From positions 1 through 64,000 of the forward strand of contig JAGWVN010000004.1 of assembly GCA_018970865.1 (NCBI GenBank): a stretch of DNA of 64,000 nucleotides, in the 5' to 3' direction. Shown here one piece after another: positions 31,340-60,756 of this stretch. Position 1 is the stretch's first letter, and the number at the start of each line of letters is the position of its first letter. The DNA is from Betaproteobacteria bacterium (GTDB lineage Bacteria; Pseudomonadota; Gammaproteobacteria; Burkholderiales; Burkholderiaceae_E). The position numbers were made by a program, and so were the translations under genes. The notes below the pieces were generated by a model. The model did not search any database and was not told the DNA's origin. It saw only the letters and a program-made list of their open reading frames with translations.

Positions 31340-31368
31340 TTGTGCCCGCCACCGGCGCTGCCTATACT
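31340..31368 (+). promoter_or_regulatory. Candidate promoter of the thiolase gene
   Basis: TTGTGC (31340-31345), a 17-bp spacer and TATACT (31363-31368). The leader would be about 25 nt and contains CCGGAGCG before the ATG at 31400. Confidence 0.55.
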
Positions 31369-31399
31369 CGGCCGATCGTCACGCCATCCGGAGCGCGCC

Positions 31400-32596
31400 A
31401 TGAGCCTGTCCCGCATCGTCCTCGCCGCCGGCGCGCGCACGCCCTTCGGCGACTTCGGCCGCTCGCTGCGCGAGGTTCCCCTGTCGTCGCTGGGCACCCA
31501 CGCCGTCCGGGCCAGCCTGGCCCGGGCCGGGGTCGACGCGGCGCAGGTCGACCACCTGGTGTTCGGCGTCACCGCGCCGGTGGACCATGACGGCCTGTTC
31601 ATCAGCCGCAAGGTGGCGCTGCAGGCCGGCCTGCCGGTGGAAAGCGCGGCGCTCGGCGTGGTGCGGGCCTGCGGCACCGGCTCGCAGGCGATCATCAGCG
31701 CCGCCGGGCAGATCCTCACCGGCCACAGCCGGCTCGCGGTGGCCGCCGGCGCCGAGAACTACAGCCGCGTGCCCTATCTTGCGCACAAGGTGCGCTGGGG
31801 CGCGCAGCGCGGCCCCTTCGAGTTCATCGACGGGCTCGACTACATCTACCGCTGCCCCTTCTCCGGCGAGCTGATGGGCGACACCGCCGAGAACCTCGCG
31901 CAGCTGCACGGCCACGGCCGCGAGGCCATGGACGACTGGGGCTGGATGAGCCAGCAGCGCGCCGGCAAGGCGATCGCCTCGGGCTTCCTCGCCCGCCAGA
32001 TCGCGCCCATCGAAGTGCCCGACGGCCGCGGCGGCACCCGGCTGTTCGACACCGATGAATTCCCCCGGCCCGGCGTCACCCGCGAGAAGCTCGCCTCGCT
32101 CAAGCCGGCCTTCCGCAAGCCCGGCGGCGTCATCACCGCCGGCAATTCCAGCGGCGTGACCGACGGCGCGGCCGCGCTGCTGGTGGCCGACCGCGAGCAC
32201 GCCGAGCAGCTGGGCATCCAGCCCGAGGCGCGGCTGATCGACTACGCGGTGGCCGGCGTGCCGCCGCACATCATGGGCGTGGGGCCGGTGCCGGCCATCG
32301 CGCAGCTGCTGCAGCGCACCGGGCTGTCGGTGGCCGACATCGACTACTTCGAGATCAACGAGGCCTTCGCGGTGGTGAACCTGCACGCCGAGCGCGAGCT
32401 GGGCATCCCGCGCGACATCACCAATCTCTACGGCGGCGGCATCTCCATCGGCCACCCGCCCGGGGCCACCGGCCTGCGCATGACCATCACCGCCATGCAG
32501 CACCTGGCCGACACCGGCGGGCGCTACGCGGTGATCAGCATGTGCCTGGGCTCGGGCATGGGCATGGCCACGCTCATCGAGAACCTGCGTCGCTGA
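31400..32596 (+). CDS. Thiolase family protein (acetyl-CoA acetyltransferase)
   Basis: A 398-residue thiolase that condenses or cleaves acyl-CoA with acetyl-CoA. The acyl-accepting nucleophile is Cys91 (VVRACGTGSQAI). YFEINEAFAVV, the GGGISIGHPPGATG loop with the catalytic His and the C-terminal SMCLGSGMGMA with the second Cys are intact. Whether it acts in degradation or biosynthesis is not decided by sequence. The start at 31400 has GGAG upstream, following a good promoter. It is divergent from the P450 gene and its end overlaps the TetR gene antisense by 23 bp. Confidence 0.93.
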   Translation: MSLSRIVLAAGARTPFGDFGRSLREVPLSSLGTHAVRASLARAGVDAAQVDHLVFGVTAPVDHDGLFISRKVALQAGLPVESAALGVVRACGTGSQAIISAAGQILTGHSRLAVAAGAENYSRVPYLAHKVRWGAQRGPFEFIDGLDYIYRCPFSGELMGDTAENLAQLHGHGREAMDDWGWMSQQRAGKAIASGFLARQIAPIEVPDGRGGTRLFDTDEFPRPGVTREKLASLKPAFRKPGGVITAGNSSGVTDGAAALLVADREHAEQLGIQPEARLIDYAVAGVPPHIMGVGPVPAIAQLLQRTGLSVADIDYFEINEAFAVVNLHAERELGIPRDITNLYGGGISIGHPPGATGLRMTITAMQHLADTGGRYAVISMCLGSGMGMATLIENLRR

Positions 32597-42003: not shown

Positions 42004-43170
42004 TCAGTCGCCGGCCAGCCGCAGCCGGTCGGGCAGCCGGCGTTCCAGCGCGTGACGCAGCAGCGCCGCCATCCGGAAGGGCGCGTGGGCGAACTTGCCG
42101 TAGGGCAGCGTGGCGAACAGCGCCAGCACCACGCCGAGGTGCGCCACCAGCAGCAGGGTCATGGCCGAGGTGTCGCGAAACCCGAGCAGGGCCAGACCGG
42201 TCACCGAGGTGAGGAACAGCAGGGCCAGAAAGCCGCGGTCGAGGGCGCGCTGCCGAGGGTCGGACTGGCGCGGATCGGTGCGACGCGCCACCCAGGCCAG
42301 GCCGAGCGGCCCCACCACCAGGCCGATCCCGCCGGCAATGCCGAGCAGCACCGGCAGGCTGGTCACCGGATAGGGCGCCGGCCGGCCGAACCCGTAATGC
42401 AGGACGGTGGCCACCGTGGTGGCGGCGAAGCACAGCATGAAGCCCCAGAAGGTCAGGTGATGCCAGCGCCGCCGCCAGTGGGTGGGGCGGTCGTCGGCAT
42501 CATGGCAGCCCTCGCCGTGGCCGCCGTCGAGATAGCGCAGGCTCAGGGCCTGGACCGCGGCCTCGCCGACCGGGGCCAGGCCCGGGCCGGGCTTTCCGGG
42601 CTCGGGCCGCGGCGAACCCGCCGAGATCTCGCGCCAGCCCTCCCGCCAGAACCGCACGATGCCCAGCGTGAGCGCGAGCAGCGCCCACGCCGAGACCGCG
42701 CCGAACAGGCTGACCAGCGTGCCGTGGCTGAACACCGCGTAGAAGTTGCCGCCATTGGGCGCCCGCCACAGCCCCTGGCCGCCCTGCAGCGCCATCAGCA
42801 GGATGAGCGAGAAGGCCAGCGCGAGCGCCAGCGACAGCGTCAGGCCGCTGCGGCGGTACAGCGCGCCCAGCGGCGCCGGCCAGGCATAGCGCTGGTAGGT
42901 CTCGAGCCGGGTGGCGGCCATGGCCTGCGGCACATTGACCGCGAACTCATGCGGGGGCGCGTACTGGCAGGCATGCAGGCAGGCGCCGCACTGGTGGCAG
43001 AGGTTGGCCAGGAAGTGGATGTCGCCGCGCTCGAAGGCGATGCGACGGGTCATGGCGGGAAAGACCGCGCAGAAGCCCTCGCAGTAGCGGCAGGCATTGC
43101 AGATCTGCAGCACCCGTCCGACCTCGGTCTCGGCGCGGGTGAGTTCGATGGTCTCAAGCAAGCGCTGCAC
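42004..43170 (-). CDS. tcuB: Tricarballylate utilisation protein TcuB (iron-sulfur, membrane)
   Basis: A 388-residue inner-membrane protein with two [4Fe-4S] sites: Cys24/27/30/34 ([11 protein letters not shown]) and Cys58/61/64/68 ([11 protein letters not shown]), followed by about six transmembrane helices. In Salmonella TcuB reoxidises the FADH2 of TcuA and passes electrons to the quinone pool. The N-terminal signature and the membrane part agree. It overlaps tcuA by 17 bp. A His/Asp-rich stretch ([15 protein letters not shown], about 225-240) between helices could bind a metal or haem. The gene is followed closely by the kinase. Confidence 0.92.
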
Positions 43171-44527
43171 GAGCGGCCTCCGCGCCGGCGATGCGGCCGA
43201 AGGCCGTGCCGATGGTCATCCCGATGCCGGCGAGGTAGCCCTTGCCGAGCACATTGCCGGCCATGATCTCGCCGGCGGCAAACAGGTTGGGGCTGGGCTG
43301 CCCGTCGAAGCGCACCCGGGCGGTGGCATCGACCTTCACGCCCAGGTAGGTGAAGGTGATGCCCGGGCGCAGCGCGTACCCCGAAAAGGGCGGGGTGTCG
43401 ATCGGCAGCGCCCAGTGGGTCTTGGCCGGCGCGAGGCCCTCGGTGCGGCAGTCATCGAGCACCGCGTGATCGAATGTCCCGGGGCGGCAGGCCCGGTTGA
43501 AGGCCTCGACGGTGGCCAGCACCCGCTCGCGCGGCAGTCCGAGCTGATCGGCCAGCGCCTCGAGCGTGTCGGCGCGCTCGCCGGGGAACACCGGCGGCAT
43601 GAAGCGGCCGGCGGCCTTGGCGTCGATGATCGAGTAGGCGATCTGATCGGGCTGCTGGGCCACCAGGCGGCCCCAGATCGCGTAGCGCTTCGGCCAGAAG
43701 TCCTCGCCCTCGTCGTAGAAGCGCTCGCCGTCGCGGTTGACCACCACCCCGAGCGACACGCAGTCGACCCGCGTGCAGATGCCGCCGTCGAACTTCGGCG
43801 CACGGGCGTCGATGGCCACGGCGTGGCACTGCGTGGGGTCGCCGATGCGGTCGGCGCCGGCATCGAGCAGCGCGCGCAGCACCACGCCCATGTTGTAGCG
43901 GGTGCCGCGGATGAGGAAGTTGTCGGCCGGCGGCCCCCAGGCCTCGCGCAGCCAGTCGAGGTTGGACTCGAAGCCGCCGCTGGCGATCACGCAGGCGCGG
44001 GCGGTGATCGGCTCGCCCCCGCACAACGCGGCCTCGAATTGGCCGTTGCGCAGGCGCAGCCCGCTCACCTCGGCCTGATAGCGCACCTGCACGCCCAGCG
44101 CCTGCGCGCTGCGGTAGTAGGCATTGACCAGCGCCTTGCCGCCGCCCAGGAAGAAGGCATTGGTGCGGCTCAGGTGCAGCGTGCCCGACAGCGACTCCTG
44201 GAAGCGCACGCCGTGGCGGCGCATCCAGTCGCGGCAGCGCGAGGAATCGCGGATGGCGATGCGGGCCATCGGCTCGTCGGTGAGCCCCCCGGTGACCTTG
44301 AGCAGGTCCTGCCAGTACTCCTCCTCGGGGTAGGCCTCGGTGAGCACATCCTGCGGGGCCTCGTGCATGCAGCGCAGGTTGCGGGTGTGCATGGAATTGC
44401 CGCCCCGCCACTCGCGCGGCGCCGACTCGAGCAGCATCACGCTGGCGCCGGCCTCGCGCGCGGTGATCGCGGCGCACAGGGCGGCATTGCCGCCGCCCAC
44501 CACCAGAACATCGACCGCTGCGCTCAT
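43154..44527 (-). CDS. tcuA: FAD-dependent tricarballylate dehydrogenase
   Basis: A 457-residue flavoprotein of the fumarate reductase/succinate dehydrogenase flavoprotein type. The N-terminal [19 protein letters not shown] binds [13 protein letters not shown], the [17 protein letters not shown] segment near the C-terminus and [31 protein letters not shown] are characteristic. TcuA oxidises tricarballylate to cis-aconitate, so tricarballylate can enter the TCA cycle. It lies 15 bp downstream of the Bug receptor gene and overlaps tcuB. The partner permease TcuC known from Salmonella is not present. Related FAD dehydrogenases act on other acids, so the exact substrate is inferred. Confidence 0.9.
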
Positions 44528-44542
44528 GATCGGTTCACGCCT

Positions 44543-45535
44543 TCAATCGGGCCGGATGCCGGCCCGGCGGATGACTTCCTTCCAGACGACCTGCTCGCGC
44601 GCGATGAACTCCGCGAACTCGCGGGGCGTGCCGGCCAGGGTCTCGGCGCCGTCACCGGCAAAGCGCGCGGTGACCGCGGAGGAACGCAAGGCCTTGCGGC
44701 ACTCCTCGCGCAGGCGCTCGATGATGTCCGCGGGCGTGCCGGCCGGCACGAGCACCCCGTACCACTGCGAGGTCTCGAACTGCGGCCAGCCGAGTTCGGC
44801 CACGGTGGGCACCTCGGGCATGGCGGCGGTGCGCTGCGCGGTGCCCACCGCGATGGCCCGCAGCCGGCCGCTGCGCAGGTAAGGAGCGAGCGCCGGCAGG
44901 CCGGCCGAGGTGGCCTGGATTCGCCCGGCGATCAGGTCGGTGAGCATGGGCCCGGTGCCGCGGTACGGGATGTGGGTGATGAACATCCGCGTGACGAGCT
45001 TCAGGTACTCCATGGCGAGGTGGCCTGCGCTGGCATTGCCGGCCGAGCCGTAATTCAGCCTGCCCGGGTTGGCGCGGACATGCGCCACGAATTCCTTCAG
45101 GGTGGCCGCCGGCACATCGGGGTGGACCACATAGAGGTTGGGCACGCGCGCCAGCAGCGTCACCGGCGCGAAGTCGCGGGCCGCATCGTAGGGCGGATGC
45201 TCGAGCATGAAGGGATTGACCGCCAGCGTGCCGACATGGCCGAGGATGAAGGTGTGGCCGTCGGGAGCGGCGCGGGCCACCTCGACCATGGCCACCGTGC
45301 CGGCGCCGCCCGGCTTGTTCTCGACGAACACCGACTGGCCGAGCTGGCGGGTGAGTTCGGCCGCCACCGAGCGGGCCACGATCTCGGAGGTGCCGCCGGG
45401 CGCGAAGGGCACCACGAAGCGCAGGGGCCGCGAGGGCCAGCCCGACTGGGCGCGGGCCGGCGACCCCACCAGCCCGGACCCCGCCGCACCCGCGAGCGCA
45501 CGCAGCGCGCGTCGTCGTGCAGGGGTGGGGGCCAT
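44543..45535 (-). CDS. Bug/TctC-family periplasmic solute-binding protein, tcu operon
   Basis: A 330-residue exported receptor. The n-region has ARRRALRAL (Tat-like) and a cleavage site near ARAQ. WPSRPLRFVVPFAPGGTSE and VFVENKPGGAGTV are the family signatures. It starts at the ATG 45535 after a GGAGATC Shine-Dalgarno; the frame is open 16 codons further up, but without a site. The tcuA gene follows after 15 bp, which indicates a ligand in the tricarballylate/citrate class. No TctA/TctB subunits are present, so it may work with transporters encoded elsewhere or as the sensory input of the kinase in this operon. Confidence 0.92.
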   Translation of the reverse strand: MAPTPARRRALRALAGAAGSGLVGSPARAQSGWPSRPLRFVVPFAPGGTSEIVARSVAAELTRQLGQSVFVENKPGGAGTVAMVEVARAAPDGHTFILGHVGTLAVNPFMLEHPPYDAARDFAPVTLLARVPNLYVVHPDVPAATLKEFVAHVRANPGRLNYGSAGNASAGHLAMEYLKLVTRMFITHIPYRGTGPMLTDLIAGRIQATSAGLPALAPYLRSGRLRAIAVGTAQRTAAMPEVPTVAELGWPQFETSQWYGVLVPAGTPADIIERLREECRKALRSSAVTARFAGDGAETLAGTPREFAEFIAREQVVWKEVIRRAGIRPD

Positions 45536-45614
45536 GGCGGATCTCCGGCGATGAGGGCGGGCCGACCGGTTCCGGCGCCGCATGAGGCCCCCATGATCCC
45601 ACGCCCGGGGCGAT

Positions 45615-51913: not shown

Positions 51914-52552
51914 TCAGGCCCGCCGCAGCGGCGCGCCGGTGAGCGACTGCAGCGCCTCGAAGGACAGCCCCTCGACCCACTCCAGCGCCACCAGCCCCTG
52001 CGGCGTGACATCGACCACCGCGAGGTCGGTGTAGATGCGCGCCACGCAGCCGATGCCGGTGAGCGGATAGGTGCAGCTCGGCACGATGCGGTGCTCTCCG
52101 CGCTTGGTCACATGCTCCATCATCACGAAGGTGCGGCGCGCGCCGATGGCGAGATCCATCGCGCCGCCCACCGCCGGTATCGCGTCGGGTTCGCCGGTGT
52201 GCCAGTTGGCGAGATCGCCGCCGGCCGACACCTGGAAGGCGCCGAGCACGCAGATGTCGAGATGGCCGCCGCGCATCATCGCGAACGAATCGGCATGGTG
52301 GAAGAACGCGCCGCCGGTGAGCAGCGTGACCGGCTGCTTGCCGGCATTGACCAGGTCCCAGTCCTCCTGCCCCCTGGCCGGCGCCGGGCCCATGCCCAGG
52401 ATGCCGTTCTCGCTGTGCAGGAAGATCTCGCGCTCGGCGGGCAGGTGGTTGGCCACGAGGGTGGGCATGCCGATGCCGAGGTTCACATACGCGCCCTCGG
52501 GGATGTCGCGGGCCACGCGGGCGGCCATCTGGTCGCGGCTCAGACGCTGCAT
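51914..52552 (-). CDS. 3-oxoacid CoA-transferase, subunit B
   Basis: A 212-residue beta subunit of a two-component family I CoA transferase (3-oxoadipate, acetoacetate or glutaconate type). The catalytic glutamate is Glu48 in HSENGILG, followed by AGKQPVTLL and GGHLDICVLGAFQVS, all family-typical. It accepts CoA as a glutamyl-CoA thioester. It lies 13 bp after the A subunit gene. Which acid is activated cannot be told; no protocatechuate genes are nearby that would argue for PcaIJ. Confidence 0.92.
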   Translation of the reverse strand: MQRLSRDQMAARVARDIPEGAYVNLGIGMPTLVANHLPAEREIFLHSENGILGMGPAPARGQEDWDLVNAGKQPVTLLTGGAFFHHADSFAMMRGGHLDICVLGAFQVSAGGDLANWHTGEPDAIPAVGGAMDLAIGARRTFVMMEHVTKRGEHRIVPSCTYPLTGIGCVARIYTDLAVVDVTPQGLVALEWVEGLSFEALQSLTGAPLRRA

Positions 52553-52565
52553 GGTCAGGCTCCCT

Positions 52566-53261
52566 TCACGATGCGCTCGGCGCGGGGCGCGCCGTGGTGT
52601 CGCCCACCGCCACCACGCGATGCACGAAGATGCCCGGGGTGACGATGTGCTCGGGATCGAGGTCGCCCAGCGGCACCAGCGCGTCCACCTGCGCCACGGT
52701 GCAGCGCGCGGCCATCGCCATCACCGGACCGAAGTTGCGGGCGGCCTTGCGGTACACCAGGTTGCCCCAGCGGTCGCCGCGCAGCGCCTTGATGAGCGCG
52801 AAGTCGGCGTGCAGCGGCATCTCGAGCACGCAGTCGCGGCCGTCGATGCGCCGGGTCTCCTTGCCGCGGGCCAGTTCGGTGCCGTAGCCGGTGGGCGTGT
52901 AGAAGCCGGCGATGCCCGCGCCCGCGGCGCGGATGCGCTCGGCGAGATTGCCCTGGGGCACGAGCTCGAGCTCGAGCTGGCCGCTGCGGTAGAGCCGGTC
53001 GAAGTGGTGCGAATCGGCCTGGCGCGGAAAAGAGCAGATGATCTTGCGCACCCGGCCCGCCTTGAGCAGCGCCGCCAGGCCGGTCTCGCCGCTGCCGGCG
53101 TTGTTGCTCACCAGGGTGAGCTCGCGCGCGCCCTGCGCGATCAGCGCCTCGATCAGCACATCGGGCATGCCCGCGCCGCCGAAACCGCCGACCAGCACCG
53201 TGGCGCCATCGGGCACATCGGCCAGCGCCTGCGCCGCGCTGGCGAGCGTCTTGTCGATCAT
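52566..53261 (-). CDS. 3-oxoacid CoA-transferase, subunit A
   Basis: A 231-residue alpha subunit. GATVLVGGFGGAGMPDVLIEAL, the LVSNNAGSGETGLAALL stretch, the PQGNLAERIRAAGAGIAGFYTPTGYGTELA loop and the VYRKAARNFGPVMAMAA region are the family signatures; they bind CoA. It overlaps the upstream beta-lactamase-fold gene by 4 bp (ATGA) and precedes the B subunit. The tail after IFVHRVV is short and low in complexity. Confidence 0.92.
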   Translation of the reverse strand: MIDKTLASAAQALADVPDGATVLVGGFGGAGMPDVLIEALIAQGARELTLVSNNAGSGETGLAALLKAGRVRKIICSFPRQADSHHFDRLYRSGQLELELVPQGNLAERIRAAGAGIAGFYTPTGYGTELARGKETRRIDGRDCVLEMPLHADFALIKALRGDRWGNLVYRKAARNFGPVMAMAARCTVAQVDALVPLGDLDPEHIVTPGIFVHRVVAVGDTTARPAPSAS

Positions 53262-54619
53262 GGCCGCCTCGCGATCGCCGACTGGGTCATGGTGCGGAAC
53301 TGGTTGCGCAGCGCGATCCGTTCGCCGTCGTTGACCTGCACCAGATAGAGGGCGATCAGCTGCTCGGCGGGGTCGACCCAGAAGAGCGTGCCGGCATTGC
53401 CCGCCCAGCCGTACTCCCCCACCGAGCCCGGCAGGCCGGCGCGGCCCACGCTGGTGCGCACCTCGAAGCCCAGGCCGAAGCCCAGGCCCGGCGGACGCCC
53501 CGGCAGGCTGCCGACATGATCGGCGGTCATGAAGGCGAGGGTCTGCGGGCTGACCAGGCGCCGCCCGTTCAGCTCGCCGCCGTTGAGCAGCAGGGTCGCG
53601 AAGCGCAGGTAGTCGGCCGCGGTGCCCACCAGCCCGCCGCCACCCGACTCGAAGGCCGGCCGGACCGCGACATCGAAGCGCGGCGTCATCGGCGGGCCGC
53701 CCGGGCGCTGCCAGGGCTGCGCGGCCCGATCGAGCTTGTCGGGGGGCACCCAGAATGCGGTGTCGCGCATGCCCAGGGGCTCGAAGATGCGCAGGCGCAG
53801 GAACTCGCCCAGGCTCTGGCCGGAGATCACCTCGACCAGCCGGCCCAGCACATCGGTGGACACGCCGTACTCCCAGCGGGTGCCCGGCGGGTGGATCAGC
53901 GGCGTGCGGGCCAGCTTCTCCACGAACTGGCGGTTGCTCTCGTCGCGGGCGCCCAGGCCGGCGGCCCGGATCTCGTCGACCACCGCGCCGCTGCTGCGCC
54001 CGGCGTAGGTCAGGCCCGCGGTGTGGCGCAGCAGGTCCTGCACGGTCATCTCGCGCGGCGGCTCGCTGCGCTCGACCACGGCGCGGCCGGCGGCATCGCG
54101 CCGCTCGACGCCGACGGTCATGCCGCGCAGCTCGGGCAGGTGCCGGGAGACCGGATCGGTGATCTGCAGACGGCCCTCCTCGACCAGCATCATCACCGCC
54201 AGGCTGACGATCGGCTTGGTCATGGAGTAGAGGCGGAAGATGGCGTCTTCGCGCATCGGCAGGTCGCGGGCGCGGTCGCGCCAGCCCACGGTGTGCAGCC
54301 AGGCGATCTGGCCGTGGCGCGCCACCAGCATCACCGCGCCCGGCACCGCGCCCGAGGCGACATGGGCGCCGGTGACCTCGGCCACGCGGGCCAGCTGCGC
54401 CGATGACAGCCCCACCGCCTCGGGCGAGGCCGCCCGCGGCAGCACCCAGTCGGGACGGGCCGACGCCGGGGGCGCTGCGCCCGGCGGCGCCCCGGTGAGC
54501 GCGCAGCCGCCGAGCAGGGCGAGAGCCAGCAGGCAGGCGCCCGGCAGACGCGCGCCGAGCCGGCGCGTGAGGACGCGCGTAGGCGCGGGCGGGAGCGGGG
54601 CAGGGTCGGAAGGGGTCAT
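53258..54619 (-). CDS. Serine hydrolase of the beta-lactamase/EstB fold, lipoprotein
   Basis: A 453-residue class C beta-lactamase-like (DUF/EstB) protein. A long n-region is followed by a hydrophobic stretch and a lipobox ending in Cys39 (ALLGGC), so it is lipidated outside the inner membrane. The nucleophile is Ser132 with Lys135 (YSMTK); the tyrosine in WEYGVSTD fits the second catalytic motif. Relatives act as esterases, D-aminopeptidases or transesterases (LovD type) rather than true beta-lactamases. It overlaps the CoA-transferase A gene by 4 bp, which suggests that it releases the acid the transferase then activates. Confidence 0.86.
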   Translation of the reverse strand: MTPSDPAPLPPAPTRVLTRRLGARLPGACLLALALLGGCALTGAPPGAAPPASARPDWVLPRAASPEAVGLSSAQLARVAEVTGAHVASGAVPGAVMLVARHGQIAWLHTVGWRDRARDLPMREDAIFRLYSMTKPIVSLAVMMLVEEGRLQITDPVSRHLPELRGMTVGVERRDAAGRAVVERSEPPREMTVQDLLRHTAGLTYAGRSSGAVVDEIRAAGLGARDESNRQFVEKLARTPLIHPPGTRWEYGVSTDVLGRLVEVISGQSLGEFLRLRIFEPLGMRDTAFWVPPDKLDRAAQPWQRPGGPPMTPRFDVAVRPAFESGGGGLVGTAADYLRFATLLLNGGELNGRRLVSPQTLAFMTADHVGSLPGRPPGLGFGLGFEVRTSVGRAGLPGSVGEYGWAGNAGTLFWVDPAEQLIALYLVQVNDGERIALRNQFRTMTQSAIARRP

Positions 54620-54753: not shown

Positions 54754-56364
54754 ATGCCCAAGACCTGGCACGACCCGCGTGTGCCCGCCCCCGAACAATG
54801 CGTGCTGCGTCCCCTGCTGGAGCGGCACGCCGCGAGCCGGCCCGACGCGGTCTTCGTGCGCTTTGCCGATGGCAGCCAGTGGACCTACGCGCAGACCCTC
54901 GACATCGTCCAGCGCACCGCCGCCGGGCTTCAGTCCCTGGGGGTGCAGCAGGGCGAGAATGTCCATGCGTGGCTGCCCAACGGGCCCGACGCGCTGCGGG
55001 TGTGGTTCGGCATCAACTACCTGGGCGCGGTCTATGTGCCGATCAACCTCGCCTACCGCGGCAGCATCCTCGCCCATGCCATCCGGCTGTCGGGCGCCCG
55101 CCTGATCGTGGCCCACGGCGGACTGGTCGACCGGCTGGCCGACATCGACCGCTCCAGGCTCACCGATCTGGTGGTGCTCGGCGGCGAGGCCGACGCCCCC
55201 GCGGTGCCAGGCCTCACCCGGCACCCCTCGGCCGTGCTCTCGCCGGCCAGCGCCCGGCCGCAGCCGCCGGCGCGCGAGATCATGCCCTGGGACACCCAGT
55301 GCATCATCTATACCTCGGGCACCACCGGGCCCTCGAAGGGCGTGATGTCCTCGTACCTGCATCTGTACGAGTCGGTGGCCGCCTGGAACTACCACATCGA
55401 GACCGACCGGCACCTGGTGCTGCTGCCGATGTTCCATGTCGGCGGCACCGCGGCGGTGTATTCCATGCTGGTGCTGGGCGCCTCGATCGCCATCGTCGAT
55501 GCCTTCCAGACCGACCGCTTCTGGGATGTCATCGAGGAGACCGGCACCACCTCGGTGATCCTGCTCGGCGGCATGGCCACCCTGCTCAACAAGCGCCCGC
55601 CCGACCCGCGCGACCGCCAGCACGGCCTGCGGGTGGCCACCATGGTGCCGCTGCTGGAAGACGCGCCGGCCTTCTCCGAGCGCTTCGGCTGTGAGGTCTA
55701 CACCGTCTTCAACATGACCGAGATCTCCTGCCCGCTGGTGTCGGGCCTGAACCCGGGGCCGCAGGCGAGCTGCGGCGGGCCCCGGCCCGGCGTCGAGGTG
55801 CGCATCGTCGACGACAACGACTGCGAGGTCGCCACCGGCGAGGTGGGCGAGCTGATCGTGCGCACCGACACGCCCTGGGCGATGAACTCCGGCTACTACG
55901 GCAACCCCGAGGCCACCGCGCGGGCCTGGCGCAACGGCTGGTTCCACACCGGCGACGCCTTCCGCCAGGACGAGGCCGGCAACTACTTCTTCGTCGATCG
56001 CATGAAGGACGCGATCCGCCGGCGCGGCGAGAACATCTCGTCCTTCGAGGTGGAGGCCGAGGTCAACAGCCACCCGCAGGTGCAGGAGGCGGCCGCGGTG
56101 GCCGTGCCCAGCGAGCACGGCGAGGACGAGGTGCTGGTGGCGGTGGTGCCGCAGCCCGGCGGCTGCGACCCGCGGGCGCTGGTGGAATACCTGATCCCGC
56201 GCATGCCGCACTTCATGGTGCCGCGCTATGTGCGCCTGATGGCCGAGCTGCCCAAGACGCCCACCCAGAAGGTGCAGAAGCACCTGATCCGCAGCGAGGG
56301 CATCACCGCCGACACCTGGGATCGCGAAAAGGCCGGGCTGGTGGTGAAGCGCCAGAAGCTCTGA
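54754..56364 (+). CDS. Acyl-CoA ligase, CaiC-like
   Basis: A 536-residue AMP-forming ligase. The ATP loop IIYTSGTTGPSKGV, the VFNMTEISCPL A5 motif, WFHTGDAFR, DRMKDAIRRRGENIS and the lysine-bearing PTQKVQKH are all intact. The outline matches the crotonobetaine/carnitine-CoA ligase-type group. The start at 54754 has GGAG upstream (CGGAGACC). Its position directly before mcd- and mct-like genes suggests that it activates a C5 dicarboxylate such as methylsuccinate or mesaconate; that is inference. It is about 35% like the ligase at 4341 by eye, not a duplicate. Confidence 0.88.
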   Translation: MPKTWHDPRVPAPEQCVLRPLLERHAASRPDAVFVRFADGSQWTYAQTLDIVQRTAAGLQSLGVQQGENVHAWLPNGPDALRVWFGINYLGAVYVPINLAYRGSILAHAIRLSGARLIVAHGGLVDRLADIDRSRLTDLVVLGGEADAPAVPGLTRHPSAVLSPASARPQPPAREIMPWDTQCIIYTSGTTGPSKGVMSSYLHLYESVAAWNYHIETDRHLVLLPMFHVGGTAAVYSMLVLGASIAIVDAFQTDRFWDVIEETGTTSVILLGGMATLLNKRPPDPRDRQHGLRVATMVPLLEDAPAFSERFGCEVYTVFNMTEISCPLVSGLNPGPQASCGGPRPGVEVRIVDDNDCEVATGEVGELIVRTDTPWAMNSGYYGNPEATARAWRNGWFHTGDAFRQDEAGNYFFVDRMKDAIRRRGENISSFEVEAEVNSHPQVQEAAAVAVPSEHGEDEVLVAVVPQPGGCDPRALVEYLIPRMPHFMVPRYVRLMAELPKTPTQKVQKHLIRSEGITADTWDREKAGLVVKRQKL

Positions 56365-56425
56365 AGGGCGCGGCAAACGGCACCACGGCGAGCCCGCCCA
56401 CACCGGCCCGGGCCGGCGGCCTCGC

Positions 56426-56431
56426 TAGAAT
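56426..56431 (+). promoter_or_regulatory. -10-like element before the mcd-like gene
   Basis: TAGAAT, 49 nt before the ATG at 56481. If real, it gives the dehydrogenase-transferase pair its own promoter inside the cluster, and it excludes the ATG at 56430 as the start. No clear -35. Confidence 0.35.
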
Positions 56432-56480
56432 GCGCCATGCCCTGGGAGAGGCGCTCTCCCGTCCGTCGATCGAATCCGCC

Positions 56481-58151
56481 ATGACCGCCACCGCGCAAGC
56501 CACGCCCTCGTCCGCCGAAACCTCCGCCGCCGACCTCCTCTCGCTGAGCGCCCGCGCGCTCGGCCAGGCCTGCGCCTACCGCGACGCGGTGCTTGCCGCC
56601 TGCCGGGCCGCGGTCGCGGCCGGCGCCGCCCGCGGCGACGACGCCGAGGCTGAACAGCGCGCCCTGCACGGCTATGCCTGGGTGGCCAGCTATGTCGAGT
56701 CCCTCGCCCAGCTGCATGACTGGGCCGCGCGCCTGAACGCGCGCGGCGCACTCGGCGGGCTGGCCGCCGATTACCTCGCGATCGGCTTTGCCGAATACCT
56801 GCAGCAGCTGCGCGGCGGGCTGCCGATGTCGCAGTGCGAGATCCTGCGGCCGCTGGACTTCGGCCTGCGCGGCGCGCAGCTCGCCATGCTCGATGACCCC
56901 GATGTCATCCGCCTCATCGAGGCCGGCAACACCCCGGCACGCCGGGCGTCGGTGGTCACCCAGGCCGCGGCCGGCCGCTGGCCCGATCCCCTGCTCGACA
57001 ACGACGCGATCAGCGCCTTCCAGGAGCAGGTGCGCCGCTTCAGCGACGAGCGCATCGCCCCCTTCGCCAACGACTGGCACCGCCAGGACATCCTGATCCC
57101 CGACGATGTGGTGCGCCAGATGGGCGAACTCGGCATCTTCGGGCTCACCATCGGCGAGCAGTGGGGCGGCAGCGACATGGGCAAGCTCGCCATGACCGTG
57201 GTCTCCGAGGAGCTCTCGCGCGGCTACATCGGCACCGGTTCCCTGGGCACCCGCTCCGAGATCGCCGGCGAGCTGATCAGCACCGGCGGCACGCCGCAGC
57301 AGAAGGAGCGATACCTGCGCGGGCTGGCCGAAGGCAGCATCCTGCCCACCGCGGTCTTCACCGAGCCCGGCTCGGGTTCGGATCTGGCCTCGCTCAAGAC
57401 CCGCGCGGTGCGCGACGGCGAGGTCTGGCGGGTCACCGGCGCCAAGACCTGGATCACCCATGCCTCGCGCAGCGACCTGATGACCATGCTGGTGCGCACC
57501 GAGGCCGATGTGCCCGGCGCGCGCGGCATCTCGCTGCTGCTGGCCGACAAGCCGCGCGGCGAACCCGGCAACCCCTTCCCGGCGCCAGGCATGCGCGGCA
57601 GCGAGATCCAGGTGCTCGGCTACCGCGGCATGAAGGAATACGAGCTCGCCTTCGACGGCTTCACGGTGCCGGCCTCGGCGCTGCTCGGCGGGGTGCCCGG
57701 CCAGGGCTTTCGCCAGCTGATGGCCACCTTCGAGAGCGCCCGCATCCAGACCGCGGCGCGGGCCATCGGCGTGGGTCAGAACGCGCTCGAGCTCGCCCTG
57801 GCCTATGCCCAGGAGCGGCGCCAGTTCGGCCGGCCGATCATCGAGTTCCCGCGGGTGCGCGACAAGCTCGCGATCATGGCGGTGGAAACCATGCTCGCGC
57901 GCCAGCTCACCTACTTCGCGGCCCGCCGCAAGGACACCGGCAAGCGCTGCGATGTCGAGGCCGGCATGGCCAAGCTGGTGGCCGCGCGGGTGGCCTGGTC
58001 CAACGCCGACAACGCGCTGCAGGTGCACGGCGGCAACGGCTACGCGCTCGAGTACCCGGTCTCGCGGCTGCTGTGCGACGCCCGGATCCTGAACATCTTC
58101 GAGGGGGCCGGCGAGATCCAGGCCCACATCATCGCCCGCGGCCTGATCTGA
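56481..58151 (+). CDS. mcd: (2S)-methylsuccinyl-CoA dehydrogenase-like acyl-CoA dehydrogenase
   Basis: A 556-residue flavoprotein, longer than ordinary acyl-CoA dehydrogenases (about 380) by an N-terminal helical domain of some 150 residues (HGYAWVASYVESLAQLHDW, FAEYLQQLRGGLPMSQCEILRP). The catalytic part contains GTGSLGTRSEIAGELI, TAVFTEPGSGSDLASLKTRA, KTWITHASRSDLMTML, MRGSEIQVLGYRGMKEYEL and FEGAGEIQAHIIARGL. That extension and the RGMKEYEL motif match (2S)-methylsuccinyl-CoA dehydrogenase of the ethylmalonyl-CoA pathway, which forms mesaconyl-(C1)-CoA. The next gene encodes a mesaconyl-CoA transferase-like protein, which supports the call. The rest of the ethylmalonyl-CoA pathway is not in the window. 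Confidence 0.85.
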   Translation: MTATAQATPSSAETSAADLLSLSARALGQACAYRDAVLAACRAAVAAGAARGDDAEAEQRALHGYAWVASYVESLAQLHDWAARLNARGALGGLAADYLAIGFAEYLQQLRGGLPMSQCEILRPLDFGLRGAQLAMLDDPDVIRLIEAGNTPARRASVVTQAAAGRWPDPLLDNDAISAFQEQVRRFSDERIAPFANDWHRQDILIPDDVVRQMGELGIFGLTIGEQWGGSDMGKLAMTVVSEELSRGYIGTGSLGTRSEIAGELISTGGTPQQKERYLRGLAEGSILPTAVFTEPGSGSDLASLKTRAVRDGEVWRVTGAKTWITHASRSDLMTMLVRTEADVPGARGISLLLADKPRGEPGNPFPAPGMRGSEIQVLGYRGMKEYELAFDGFTVPASALLGGVPGQGFRQLMATFESARIQTAARAIGVGQNALELALAYAQERRQFGRPIIEFPRVRDKLAIMAVETMLARQLTYFAARRKDTGKRCDVEAGMAKLVAARVAWSNADNALQVHGGNGYALEYPVSRLLCDARILNIFEGAGEIQAHIIARGLI

Positions 58152-58164
58152 AGGAGACCGTCCC

Positions 58165-59379
58165 GTGTTCCAGGTGCTCAATGACCTTCGGGTCGTGGAA
58201 ATGGCCGCCTTCGTGGCCGGCCCCCTCGCCGGCATGACGCTGGCGCAGCTCGGCGCGCGCGTCATCCGCGTCGACGATGTCGGCGGCAATGCCGACATCG
58301 GCCGCTGGCCGATCGCCGCCAACGGCCGCAGCCTCTACTGGGCCGGCCTGAACAAGGCCAAGCAGTCGCTGTGCGTGGACCTCGGCGACGAGCGCGGACA
58401 GGCGCTGGTGGCCGACCTGATCTGCGACGACGCCCCGGGCGGCGGCATCCTGATCACCAACTTCCCCATGAAGGGCTGGCTGGCCTACGACAAGCTGGCG
58501 GCGCGTCGCCCCGACCTGATCGTGGTGCAGATCACCGGCGACTGGCAGGGCCGCACCGCGCTCGACTACACCGTGAATGCCGGCGCGGGCTTCCCCTTCA
58601 TCACCGGCAACGGCGGCCCCACCCAGCCGGTCAACAATGTCACCCCGGCCTGGGACCTGATGTGCGGCTCGCATGTGGCCATCGCGGTGCTGGCCGCCGA
58701 GCGCCGGCGGCGCGACACCGGCCGCGGCAGCCATGTGCGCATCGCGCTGCAGGACATGGGCCTGGCCACCATCGGCAGCCTGGGCTATCTCGCCGAGGTG
58801 CAGGTCAACGGCGAAGACCGGCAGGGCTACGGCAACCACATCTTCGGCACCTTCGGCCATGACTTCGGCACCCGCGACGACCGCCGGGTGATGATCATGG
58901 CGATCTCGGTGCGGCAGTGGCGCGGCCTGCAGAAGGCGCTGGGCTTCGCCGAGGCGGTGAGCGCCTGGGAGAAGGCCAACGGCGTCGACCTCAATGACGA
59001 GGGCGCGCGCTTTCGCCATCGCGACCAGCTGGTGGCCTGGATCGAGCCGGGCGTGCGGGCCCGCAGCCTCGCCGAGATCGGGCCGCTCTTCGATGCCAAC
59101 GGGGTGTGCTGGGGGGTGTACCGCAGCCCGCGCCAGGCGCTGGCCGAAGACCCCAACTGCTCCACCGCCAACCCGCTGTTCCAGGAGATCGAGCAGCCCG
59201 GCATCGGCCGCTATCTGGCGGCCGGCTCGCCGATGCGCTTTGGCGATCTGCCGCCGCAACCGGTGACGCCCGCGCCCACCCTGGGCGAGCACGGCCCGGC
59301 CATCGTCGGCGGCGATCTCGGGCGCAGCGCCGAGGAAGTGGCGGCCCTGCGCGCCGCCGGGGTGCTGTCGGCGCCCTGA
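58165..59379 (+). CDS. mct: Mesaconyl-CoA C1:C4 CoA transferase-like (2-methylfumaryl-CoA isomerase)
   Basis: A 404-residue CaiB/BaiF-family protein. Its opening VVEMAAFVAGPLAGMTLAQLGARVIRVDDVGG, SLYWAGLNKAKQSL, ITNFPMKGWLAYDKL, VNNVTPAWDLMCGSHVA and the final EQPGIGRYLAAGSPMRF are the pattern of mesaconyl-CoA C1:C4 CoA transferase from the 3-hydroxypropionate bi-cycle (also called 2-methylfumaryl-CoA isomerase). That enzyme moves CoA intramolecularly between the two carboxyls of mesaconate. The catalytic aspartate should be in the ALQDMGLA segment. The gene is 13 bp after the mcd-like gene, with AAGGAGA before the ATG. From recall of the family, not alignment, so substrate is probable only. 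Confidence 0.82.
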   Translation: MFQVLNDLRVVEMAAFVAGPLAGMTLAQLGARVIRVDDVGGNADIGRWPIAANGRSLYWAGLNKAKQSLCVDLGDERGQALVADLICDDAPGGGILITNFPMKGWLAYDKLAARRPDLIVVQITGDWQGRTALDYTVNAGAGFPFITGNGGPTQPVNNVTPAWDLMCGSHVAIAVLAAERRRRDTGRGSHVRIALQDMGLATIGSLGYLAEVQVNGEDRQGYGNHIFGTFGHDFGTRDDRRVMIMAISVRQWRGLQKALGFAEAVSAWEKANGVDLNDEGARFRHRDQLVAWIEPGVRARSLAEIGPLFDANGVCWGVYRSPRQALAEDPNCSTANPLFQEIEQPGIGRYLAAGSPMRFGDLPPQPVTPAPTLGEHGPAIVGGDLGRSAEEVAALRAAGVLSAP

Positions 59380-59397: not shown

Positions 59398-60756
59398 TCA
59401 GTCGAGCGCGCGCAGCACCCGGCCGAGGCGCTCGACCATCTGGTCGATCTGGTCCTTCTGGACGATCAGCGGCGGCGACAGCGCGATGATGTCGCCGGTG
59501 AAGCGCACCATCAGGTCTTCCTCGAAGAAGGCCTTCACATGGGCCTCGAAGGCCCGCGCGCCCGCCGCGCCGGCGCGCGGCTCGAGCTCGACGGCGCCCA
59601 TCAGGCCGATGTTGCGGATGTCGATCACATGGCGGGTGCCGCGCAGGCAGTGCAGCGCGTTCTCCCAGTGCGCGGCGAGCTCGTCGGCGCGCTCGAGCAG
59701 GCCTTCCTGCTGGTAGATGTCGAGCGCGGCCATGGCCGAGGCGCAGGCCAGCGGGTGGGCCGAGTAGGTGTAGCCGTGGAAGAACTCGATCGCGGTGGCC
59801 GGCCCCTGCATGAAGGCGTCGTAGATGCCTTCGCGGGCGAAGACCGCGCCCATGGGCACGGTGGCGCTGTTGATGCCCTTGGCCACGGTGAAGAGATCGG
59901 GCACCACGCCGAGCTTCTGGAAGCCGAAGGGCTTGCCGATGCGGCCGAAGGCGGTGATCACCTCGTCGAAGATCAGCAGGATGCCGTGACGGGCGGTGAT
60001 CTCGCGCAGCCGCTCCAGGTAGCCCACCGGCGGCACCAGCACCCCGGTGGAGCCGGCTACCGGCTCGACGATGACCGCGGCCACGGTGGAGGGGTCGTGC
60101 AGGGCGAGGATGCGCTCGAGCTCGTCGGCGAGGTGGGCGCCCCACTGCGGCTGGCCGCGGCTGAACGCGTTGTGCGCCAGGCTGTGGGTGTGCGGCAGGT
60201 GGTCGACCGCCGGCAGCAGCGCGCCGGAGAACACCTTGCGGTTGCCGGCGATGCCGCCCACCGACATGCCGCCGAAGCCCACGCCGTGATAGCCGCGCTC
60301 GCGGCCGATGATGCGGGTGCGCTGGGCTTCGCCGCGAACCCGGTGGTAGCCGATCGCGATCTTGAGCGCGGTGTCGACCGCCTCGGATCCGGAGTTGGTG
60401 TAGAAGACCTGGCTGAAGGGCTTGCCGGCCAGCGCCACCAGCCGGCTGGAGAGCTCGAAGGCCGCCGGATGGCCCATCTGGAAGGCCGGGGCGAAGTCGA
60501 GCGAGGCGGCGGCGCGCGCGATGGCGTCGACGATCGGCTGGCGGCAGTGGCCGGCATTCACGCACCACAGGCCGGCGGTGCCGTCGAGAATGGCGCGGCC
60601 TTCCGGGGTGTAGTAGTGCATGCCCTCGGCGCGGGCGAGCAGCCGGGGCTGGGCCTTGAACTGCCGGTTGGCGGTGAAGGGCATCCAGAAGGCCGACAGG
60701 GCCGGATCGGCTTCGGTCTGGGGTGCGAGGGCGCTGAGCCGGGTGAGGTCGTTCAT
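59398..60756 (-). CDS. Class III omega-aminotransferase (beta-alanine--pyruvate type)
   Basis: A 452-residue PLP enzyme. FWMPFTANRQFKAQPRLL at the N-terminus, DGTAGLWCVNAGHC, YTNSGSEAVDTALK, GVGFGGMSVGGIAGNRK, IVEPVAGSTGVLVPP and the PLP-binding FDEVITAFGR and VAKGINSA (Lys) are the marks of omega-amino acid:pyruvate aminotransferases such as beta-alanine--pyruvate transaminase. It turns an omega-amino acid and pyruvate into a semialdehyde and alanine. A methylmalonate-semialdehyde dehydrogenase, often beside it, is not here. It overlaps the AmpG-like gene by 4 bp (ATGA). The open frame extends much further upstream but only antisense to other genes. Confidence 0.9.
   Translation of the reverse strand: MNDLTRLSALAPQTEADPALSAFWMPFTANRQFKAQPRLLARAEGMHYYTPEGRAILDGTAGLWCVNAGHCRQPIVDAIARAAASLDFAPAFQMGHPAAFELSSRLVALAGKPFSQVFYTNSGSEAVDTALKIAIGYHRVRGEAQRTRIIGRERGYHGVGFGGMSVGGIAGNRKVFSGALLPAVDHLPHTHSLAHNAFSRGQPQWGAHLADELERILALHDPSTVAAVIVEPVAGSTGVLVPPVGYLERLREITARHGILLIFDEVITAFGRIGKPFGFQKLGVVPDLFTVAKGINSATVPMGAVFAREGIYDAFMQGPATAIEFFHGYTYSAHPLACASAMAALDIYQQEGLLERADELAAHWENALHCLRGTRHVIDIRNIGLMGAVELEPRAGAAGARAFEAHVKAFFEEDLMVRFTGDIIALSPPLIVQKDQIDQMVERLGRVLRALD

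Follow-up and report, generated by a model that had tools for sequence, protein, structure and literature searches.

The first 64,000 nucleotides of contig JAGWVN010000004.1 from a Betaproteobacteria bacterium (GenBank assembly GCA_018970865.1), referred to here in their entirety as the window, carry three consecutive genes on the + strand (54754-59379) that encode an AMP-forming acyl-CoA ligase, a long acyl-CoA dehydrogenase assigned as (2S)-methylsuccinyl-CoA dehydrogenase (Mcd), and a CaiB-family CoA transferase of the mesaconyl-CoA C1:C4 CoA transferase (Mct) family. This cluster is probably the core of a natural route, built from known enzymes, that would convert methylsuccinyl-C1-CoA to acetyl-CoA and pyruvate. 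Gene order, family and clade membership, active-site residues, absence of the parent pathways, recurrence of the gene pair, and complete operons in other bacteria were all read directly from the DNA. An earlier note on this stretch had described three same-strand genes with gaps of 116 bp (ligase to Mcd) and 13 bp (Mcd to Mct), and both the coordinates and the gaps (counted from the ATG at 56481) were reproduced. The hybrid route it proposed, through mesaconyl-C1-CoA, mesaconyl-C4-CoA, and citramalyl-CoA, gains support from clade placements, genome searches, and the complete operons.

Identity of the dehydrogenase

Judged from its sequence, the second protein of the cluster is a genuine (2S)-methylsuccinyl-C1-CoA dehydrogenase. 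Among solved structures, the top match is Paracoccus denitrificans Mcd (6ES9), with 622 bits over the full length; those ranked next reach 268 and 265 bits and cover the core region only. The two enzymes are 57% identical overall and 66% identical in the core, with an alignment that begins at query residue 29 (chain residue 9) and runs through the N-terminal extension of ∼170-190 residues to the C-terminus. That extension and an RGMKEYEL motif were the grounds on which Mcd had been suspected; the motif is present, and the ∼190-residue extension aligns to that of the Paracoccus enzyme. Active-site and neighboring residues named for the Paracoccus enzyme (PMC5798300) are kept at 15 of 16 positions, the exception being Ser283, which is replaced by proline. 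The carboxylate-binding residues Arg252, Arg376, and Arg421 correspond to R275, R399, and R444 of the window protein, the methyl pocket formed by Ala285 and Phe287 corresponds to A308 and F310, and the catalytic base Glu535 corresponds to E558. In a tree of 48 sequences, the dehydrogenase falls inside a 37-member Mcd clade together with the Paracoccus enzyme (support 97), as the earlier note would have expected, and ten tabulated active-site positions are identical across all 37 members.

A sister clade of long (∼560 amino acids) dehydrogenases is also encoded beside or near Mct genes (loci L059, L069, L097, L116, L038, L055, and L203), including in Accumulibacter, Marinobacter, and Comamonadaceae. 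These proteins keep the three carboxylate arginines, with Ala285 replaced by Ile and Phe287 by Val, Ile, or Leu. Because the methyl-pocket residues are replaced, they probably act on a different substrate, another dicarboxylyl-CoA.

Identity of the CoA transferase

Membership of the transferase in the Mct family is supported by structural matches, trees, and motifs. The best solved relatives are the Mct enzymes of Chloroflexus and Roseiflexus (8APQ/7XKG; 423 and 420 bits, full-length), and the next class III transferase structure scores 81 bits. The window genome (3.9 Mb) encodes 25 class III CoA transferases (PF02515), and the possibility that the window protein is just one of these was ruled out by the tree and by the gap between 423 and 81 bits. 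In trees that included nine CaiB paralogs from its own genome, the transferase was monophyletic with the Chloroflexus and Roseiflexus enzymes, separated from the paralogs with support of 75-85 and a stem of 1.36-1.38. It branched first in an early Mct tree and moved inside the family once homologs were added, so its placement within the family carries no weight here. The signature SLYWAGLNK is common to the transferase and the characterized Mct enzymes, and the catalytic residues Asp165 and Arg47 (PMC9196870) correspond to D164 and R47, both invariant across the 90-row alignment. The Mct pattern recognized earlier in this CaiB-family protein is thus borne out, by its placement in the tree as well as by its top structural relatives and catalytic Asp/Arg pair.

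Recurrence of the pair and complete operons

The strongest evidence for the proposed route comes from complete operons in other bacteria, which would encode the full hypothesized sequence of steps, including the electron acceptor. On plasmid pSHV1 of Sphingobium herbicidovorans MH, genes for Mct, Mcd, a Meh-family hydratase, and a CitE-family lyase lie head to tail. A longer row on pEmeITTGR7c of Sinorhizobium mexicanum comprises genes for an alpha/beta hydrolase, an AMP ligase, a thiolase, a 2-hydroxyacid dehydrogenase, Mcd, Mct, a Meh-family hydratase, a CitE-family lyase, EtfB, and EtfA. The ten active-site residues of Mcd are kept in both. On plasmid pCADAB1 (L200, L206), the Mct-Mcd operon includes an 82-amino-acid thiolase-like fragment (L200:10197-10445) in a region flanked by IS5-family transposases, and neither a hydratase nor a lyase gene was found next to it.

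The pair itself is conserved within the genus of the window organism and recurs in unrelated lineages, which argues for more than chance. Mct was found in five of ten genus genomes and is adjoined by Mcd in all five; in a sixth, Mcd lies beside an Mct gene that is cut by the contig end. Conversely, each Mcd gene of the genus with an assembled flank (six genomes) adjoins Mct. The order is Mcd-Mct in the window genome (G000), G210, and G404, and Mct-Mcd in G399, G400, and G402, and the two versions are mutually only about 50-60% identical. In another species of the genus the pair is adjacent and 84-91% conserved. The sister genome G210 has a ligase homolog (76% identical) upstream of Mcd-Mct; an alpha/beta hydrolase gene separates the ligase gene from Mcd, and a carboxyltransferase gene lies upstream. 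This operon (L114:7754-12963) encodes a biotin-dependent carboxyltransferase-like protein and an Abhydrolase_10 protein.

Beyond the genus, Mcd and Mct adjoin each other at L115, from a different family within the order, and at L163/L167, from a genome farther removed within the phylum. They lie 7 kb apart in a metagenome-assembled genome of the Rhodospirillales (L027), and Mct, a hydratase, and Mcd are consecutive in one from a marine alphaproteobacterium (L086). Among 23 plasmid records with Mcd, 13 have a same-strand Mct within 2.2 kb, namely eight from Azospirillum and one each from Sphingomonas paeninsulae, S. herbicidovorans, Sphingomonas ERG5, Ancylobacter polymorphus, and S. mexicanum; the Mcd records from Paracoccus and Novosphingobium plasmids are without Mct. 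Altogether, Mcd and Mct occur together, in both orders, in at least eight lineages besides the window genome. Because the transferases encoded near Mcd are not monophyletic in the Mct tree, the two genes appear to have become associated repeatedly, although horizontal transfer complicates the count.

Other genomic settings of Mct were also seen. A larger recurring cluster encodes an HMG-CoA-synthase-like or OB-fold protein, a thiolase, an SDR protein, a MaoC protein, dehydrogenases, Mct, Mcd or an Mcd-like protein, and Meh (L069:1534-15000, L167:3000-18000, and L198:1369-11119, from Marinobacter litoralis, G634, and Sphingomonas paeninsulae, respectively), which suggests an upstream pathway feeding the Mct module. 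Mct further lies beside a Meh-family hydratase gene at eight loci (L090, L100, L101, L073, L075, L026, L056, and L078), some with a CitE/Mcl-like lyase. No Mch was found within the stretches examined at these eight loci, which may point to additional roles for Mct beyond the 3-hydroxypropionate bi-cycle.

Parent pathways and downstream candidates in the genome

Searches of the window genome (3.91 Mb, 99.6% complete) recovered neither of the two separate pathways to which these enzymes are usually assigned, the ethylmalonyl-CoA pathway for Mcd and the 3-hydroxypropionate bi-cycle for Mct. The best match to the profile of crotonyl-CoA carboxylase/reductase (Ccr) anywhere in the genome reached 72 bits against a cut-off of 379, so there is no Ccr; the mesaconyl-C1-CoA hydratase Mch (PF19315) had no match in the whole genome; and the sole B12-dependent mutase is a fused protein of the IcmF type, as assigned by reading its sequence, so there is no separate ethylmalonyl-CoA mutase (Ecm). 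The ethylmalonyl-CoA pathway is ruled out by the lack of all three, and the 3-hydroxypropionate bi-cycle by the lack of Mch. It follows that Mcd would serve neither parent pathway, that methylsuccinyl-CoA is not expected from ethylmalonyl-CoA in the absence of Ccr and a separate Ecm, and that, without Mch, mesaconyl-C1-CoA has no recognized exit other than Mct.

Enzymes for the remaining steps were sought in the same genome. Within the window there is neither Mcl nor Meh, nor any other hydratase or CitE-type lyase for the remaining steps. Elsewhere, a hydratase candidate (C68:99342-100190) resembles itaconyl-CoA hydratase (8khg, 185 bits) and is 40% identical to Meh of Chloroploca, and a lyase candidate is a CitE-like protein on contig C166 (about 1051-1941). 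The genome check suggested in the earlier note therefore returned no Ccr and a candidate each for mesaconyl-C4-CoA hydratase and citramalyl-CoA lyase. A check of whether the hydratase candidate accompanies Mct across the genus gave no support, as genus members without Mcd and Mct carry the hydratase too. A single MmgE/PrpD protein is encoded outside the window.

Gene layout and neighboring genes

All three frames of the cluster show the codon-position GC signature of coding sequence, in a window of 72.8% GC (Table 1). Motifs resembling ribosome-binding sites (GGAGA) precede the ATG of the ligase and the GTG of the transferase, the latter inside the 13 bp that follow the Mcd stop codon. Promoter and terminator scans found nothing and are uninformative at 73% GC. 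The ligase is an AMP-forming, CaiC/PRK06155-like enzyme, in line with the first description, with a Pfam AMP-binding match and a score of 490 bits for NCBIfam NF004808, short of the 722 cut-off. It is the presumed activator of a methylsuccinate-type acid, and its sequence cannot assign the substrate.

Table 1. Genes of the cluster and its immediate neighbors in the window
Feature	Coordinates	Strand	Remarks
3-Oxoacid CoA-transferase subunit B (PcaJ/ScoB family)	51914-52552	-	TIGR02428, 301 bits, above cut-off
3-Oxoacid CoA-transferase subunit A (PcaI/ScoA family)	52566-53261	-	TIGR02429, 378 bits, above cut-off
Lipoprotein-type serine hydrolase (beta-lactamase fold esterase)	53258-54619	-	PF00144, 235 bits; lipobox LLGGC
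AMP-forming acyl-CoA ligase (P0001)	54754-56364	+	Open frame from 54628; ATG at 54754
Long acyl-CoA dehydrogenase, Mcd (P0002)	56481-58151	+	Alternative in-frame ATG possible at 56430
CaiB-family class III CoA transferase, Mct family (P0003)	58165-59379	+	GTG start at 58165
Omega-aminotransferase, AptA-type	59398-60756	-	706 bits, cut-off 500; directly downstream of and convergent with the transferase gene

The divergent group on the - strand includes, besides the genes in Table 1, one for a SnoaL-like protein. The closest NCBIfam family of the serine hydrolase is AcmB (176 bits, under cut-off), and a possible role for it would be a first step that frees the acid from an ester. Subunits A and B of the 3-oxoacid CoA-transferase are 86% and 88% identical to their homologs in G210 and are each 74% identical to PcaI and PcaJ of pCADAB1, a plasmid for degradation of the herbicide 4-chloro-2-methylphenoxyacetic acid (MCPA); this PcaI/ScoA-type transferase is a possible supplier of a methyl-3-oxoadipyl-CoA, with the limit that family models cannot separate pcaIJ from scoAB. 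An omega-aminotransferase gene likewise follows Mct in G404. Farther away, the window encodes an FAD-dependent tricarballylate dehydrogenase, TcuA (43154-44527, - strand; 759 bits against a cut-off of 369), whose gene is adjoined by one for a TctC receptor (44543-45583).

Proposed route and alternatives

In the proposed route, the ligase would most likely convert a free methylsuccinate-type acid to its CoA thioester, giving methylsuccinyl-C1-CoA, and Mcd would oxidize (2S)-methylsuccinyl-C1-CoA to mesaconyl-C1-CoA, passing electrons to the electron transfer flavoprotein. As the genome has no recognizable mesaconyl-C1-CoA hydratase, this product is expected to leave through the Mct-family enzyme, which would move CoA from C1 to C4 via an aspartyl anhydride on Asp164. 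The resulting mesaconyl-C4-CoA would be hydrated to citramalyl-CoA by a MaoC-type mesaconyl-C4-CoA hydratase and cleaved to acetyl-CoA and pyruvate by a CitE-type citramalyl-CoA lyase. All of these activities, the regiochemistry of activation, and the choice of hydratase and lyase from the genome are predictions from sequence. The source of methylsuccinyl-CoA is the weakest point, for which activation of free methylsuccinate by the ligase is the simplest reading.

Several observations weigh against this route. The hydratase and lyase candidates are unlinked to the locus and only ∼35-40% identical to the enzymes of the complete operons; the hydratase candidate may serve another role, since it occurs too in members of the genus with no Mcd or Mct, and the lyase candidate is a generic CitE relative encoded beside arginase. 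Some Mcd-Mct pairs occur without the ligase. The transferase scores 448 bits with TIGR04253 and misses the cut-off of 725, which is reached by none of the seven genomes with a match among 399 genomes of the order. Finally, Leu43, Arg75, Phe101, and Arg104 of Chloroflexus Mct have been tied to a "corked" intramolecular mechanism (PMC9813914), and these cork residues are largely lost from the window protein, which has A43, G74, F100, and K103; Phe101 alone is kept, the change of Arg104 to Lys is conservative, and Arg314 of the Chloroflexus enzyme is replaced by Gly. With several cork residues lost, strictly intramolecular CoA transfer is not assured.

That loss bears on an alternative in which the transferase is mainly intermolecular and primes the substrate: free methylsuccinate, or some other dicarboxylate, would take over the CoA of mesaconyl-CoA, and the mesaconate set free would fall to a fumarase-type mesaconase. 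An open entrance would result from the absence, in the window clade, of counterparts to Leu43, Arg75, and Arg314, and there are class I fumarases that act as mesaconases (PMC9875883). Such a mechanism is nevertheless distinctly unlikely, given that the transferase falls in the Mct family, which a long branch sets apart from the remaining class III transferases. Position 43, moreover, varies (Pro, Ile) in Mcd-linked homologs whose operons include a C4 hydratase and a lyase; in the alignment it is Ala only in the window genus and Pro in sphingomonads, Ancylobacter, and G634. A larger 2-substituted succinyl-CoA as the substrate of the pair could account for the link of Mct to the sister dehydrogenase clade with its different methyl pocket, yet the window dehydrogenase keeps the three carboxylate arginines as well as the Ala285/Phe287 pocket and matches Paracoccus Mcd at each of the ten positions tabulated with the tree, which makes such a substrate highly improbable. 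It is scarcely credible that Mcd is a part of an ordinary or broken ethylmalonyl-CoA pathway with Mct beside it incidentally; the closest characterized Mcd enzymes do come from that pathway, but the genome searches disfavor it and the Mcd-Mct pairing recurs independently.

A different origin of methylsuccinyl-CoA would leave the Mcd-Mct module as proposed. It could come, instead of from the ligase, from thiolysis of a methyl-3-oxoadipyl-CoA that the divergent PcaIJ-type transferase would form as methylated aromatics or similar compounds are degraded. On chemical grounds, thiolysis of 4-methyl-3-oxoadipyl-CoA would be expected to yield exactly the C1 thioester, and a published account of the 4-methyl-3-oxoadipate route names methylsuccinyl-CoA as its product (PMC6449761). 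The divergent ScoAB is PcaIJ-like and conserved in the sister genome, the MCPA plasmid pCADAB1 (PMC3877037) bears Mct and Mcd as well as the related PcaIJ, the Mct-Mcd-hydratase-lyase operon of S. herbicidovorans is on a plasmid of a herbicide degrader, and the S. mexicanum operon includes a thiolase. Against this, none of the window genes covered by the scan was recognized as a catechol, muconate, or ring-cleavage gene, the window thiolase (31340-32596) is BktB-like and under the PcaF cut-off, the family models do not tell pcaIJ from scoAB, and 5-methyl-3-oxoadipate, expected from MCPA, would presumably give the C4-CoA ester instead. Supply by thiolysis is therefore considered possible but rather unlikely, and supply of methylsuccinyl-C1-CoA by the ligase is preferred.

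Relation to known systems and implications

The window dehydrogenase resembles Paracoccus Mcd in its N-terminal extension, three arginines, Ala/Phe pocket, catalytic Glu, and clade, and it differs in its setting, a genome without Ccr, Mch, or a separate Ecm in which Mcd is linked to Mct. The transferase likewise departs from the Chloroflexus and Roseiflexus enzymes at Leu43, Arg75, and Arg314, and its gene has no Mch or Mcl beside it. In Accumulibacter and sulfur-oxidizing symbionts, a partial 3-hydroxypropionate bi-cycle employs Mct and a C4 hydratase outside autotrophy (PMC6593406); there, however, Mct operates with Mch and Mcl, on the side of glyoxylate and propionyl-CoA, and not with a C1-type Mcd.

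The closest functional parallel is the itaconate/methylsuccinate cluster of Cupriavidus and Pseudomonas, which encodes Ict, Ich, Ccl, a methylsuccinyl-C4-CoA dehydrogenase, and an isomerase (PMC12290011) and, like the proposed route, leads from methylsuccinate through mesaconyl-C4-CoA and citramalyl-CoA to acetyl-CoA and pyruvate. That route uses C4-CoA esters throughout, and for C. necator methylsuccinyl-C1-CoA was described as a dead end (PMC12290011), whereas the window dehydrogenase belongs to the C1 clade of the ethylmalonyl-CoA pathway and, with Mct, the C1 ester would become usable. A Cupriavidus-type cluster (Ict-Ich-Ccl with a C4-specific dehydrogenase and an MmgE/PrpD isomerase) was not found in the window. 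The junction from Mcd through Mct to citramalyl-CoA has been drawn on paper in the reductive citramalyl-CoA cycle, an artificial CO2-fixing design (PMC10521678), from which the window gene set differs in being natural and apparently catabolic. No description of a natural Mcd-Mct pairing was found in the literature searched, which covered few subscription papers, and the junction appeared there only as this artificial design.

Since many unrelated bacteria carry the pair, in some cases within one operon that covers the remaining steps, a route for methylsuccinyl-CoA breakdown otherwise found only as an artificial design probably operates in nature. It is evenly balanced whether this catabolic route is widespread and partly plasmid-borne and forms the lower part of the degradation of methyl-branched dicarboxylates or of methylated aromatics, among them MCPA-type herbicides. 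If the route is real, a natural Mcd-Mct-hydratase-lyase operon would remove the methylsuccinyl-C1-CoA dead end, and Mct would gain a catabolic role outside the 3-hydroxypropionate bi-cycle. It would also suggest a fate for the C5 fragment from methylated aromatics and would offer natural enzyme sets for synthetic cycles that require the Mcd-Mct junction.

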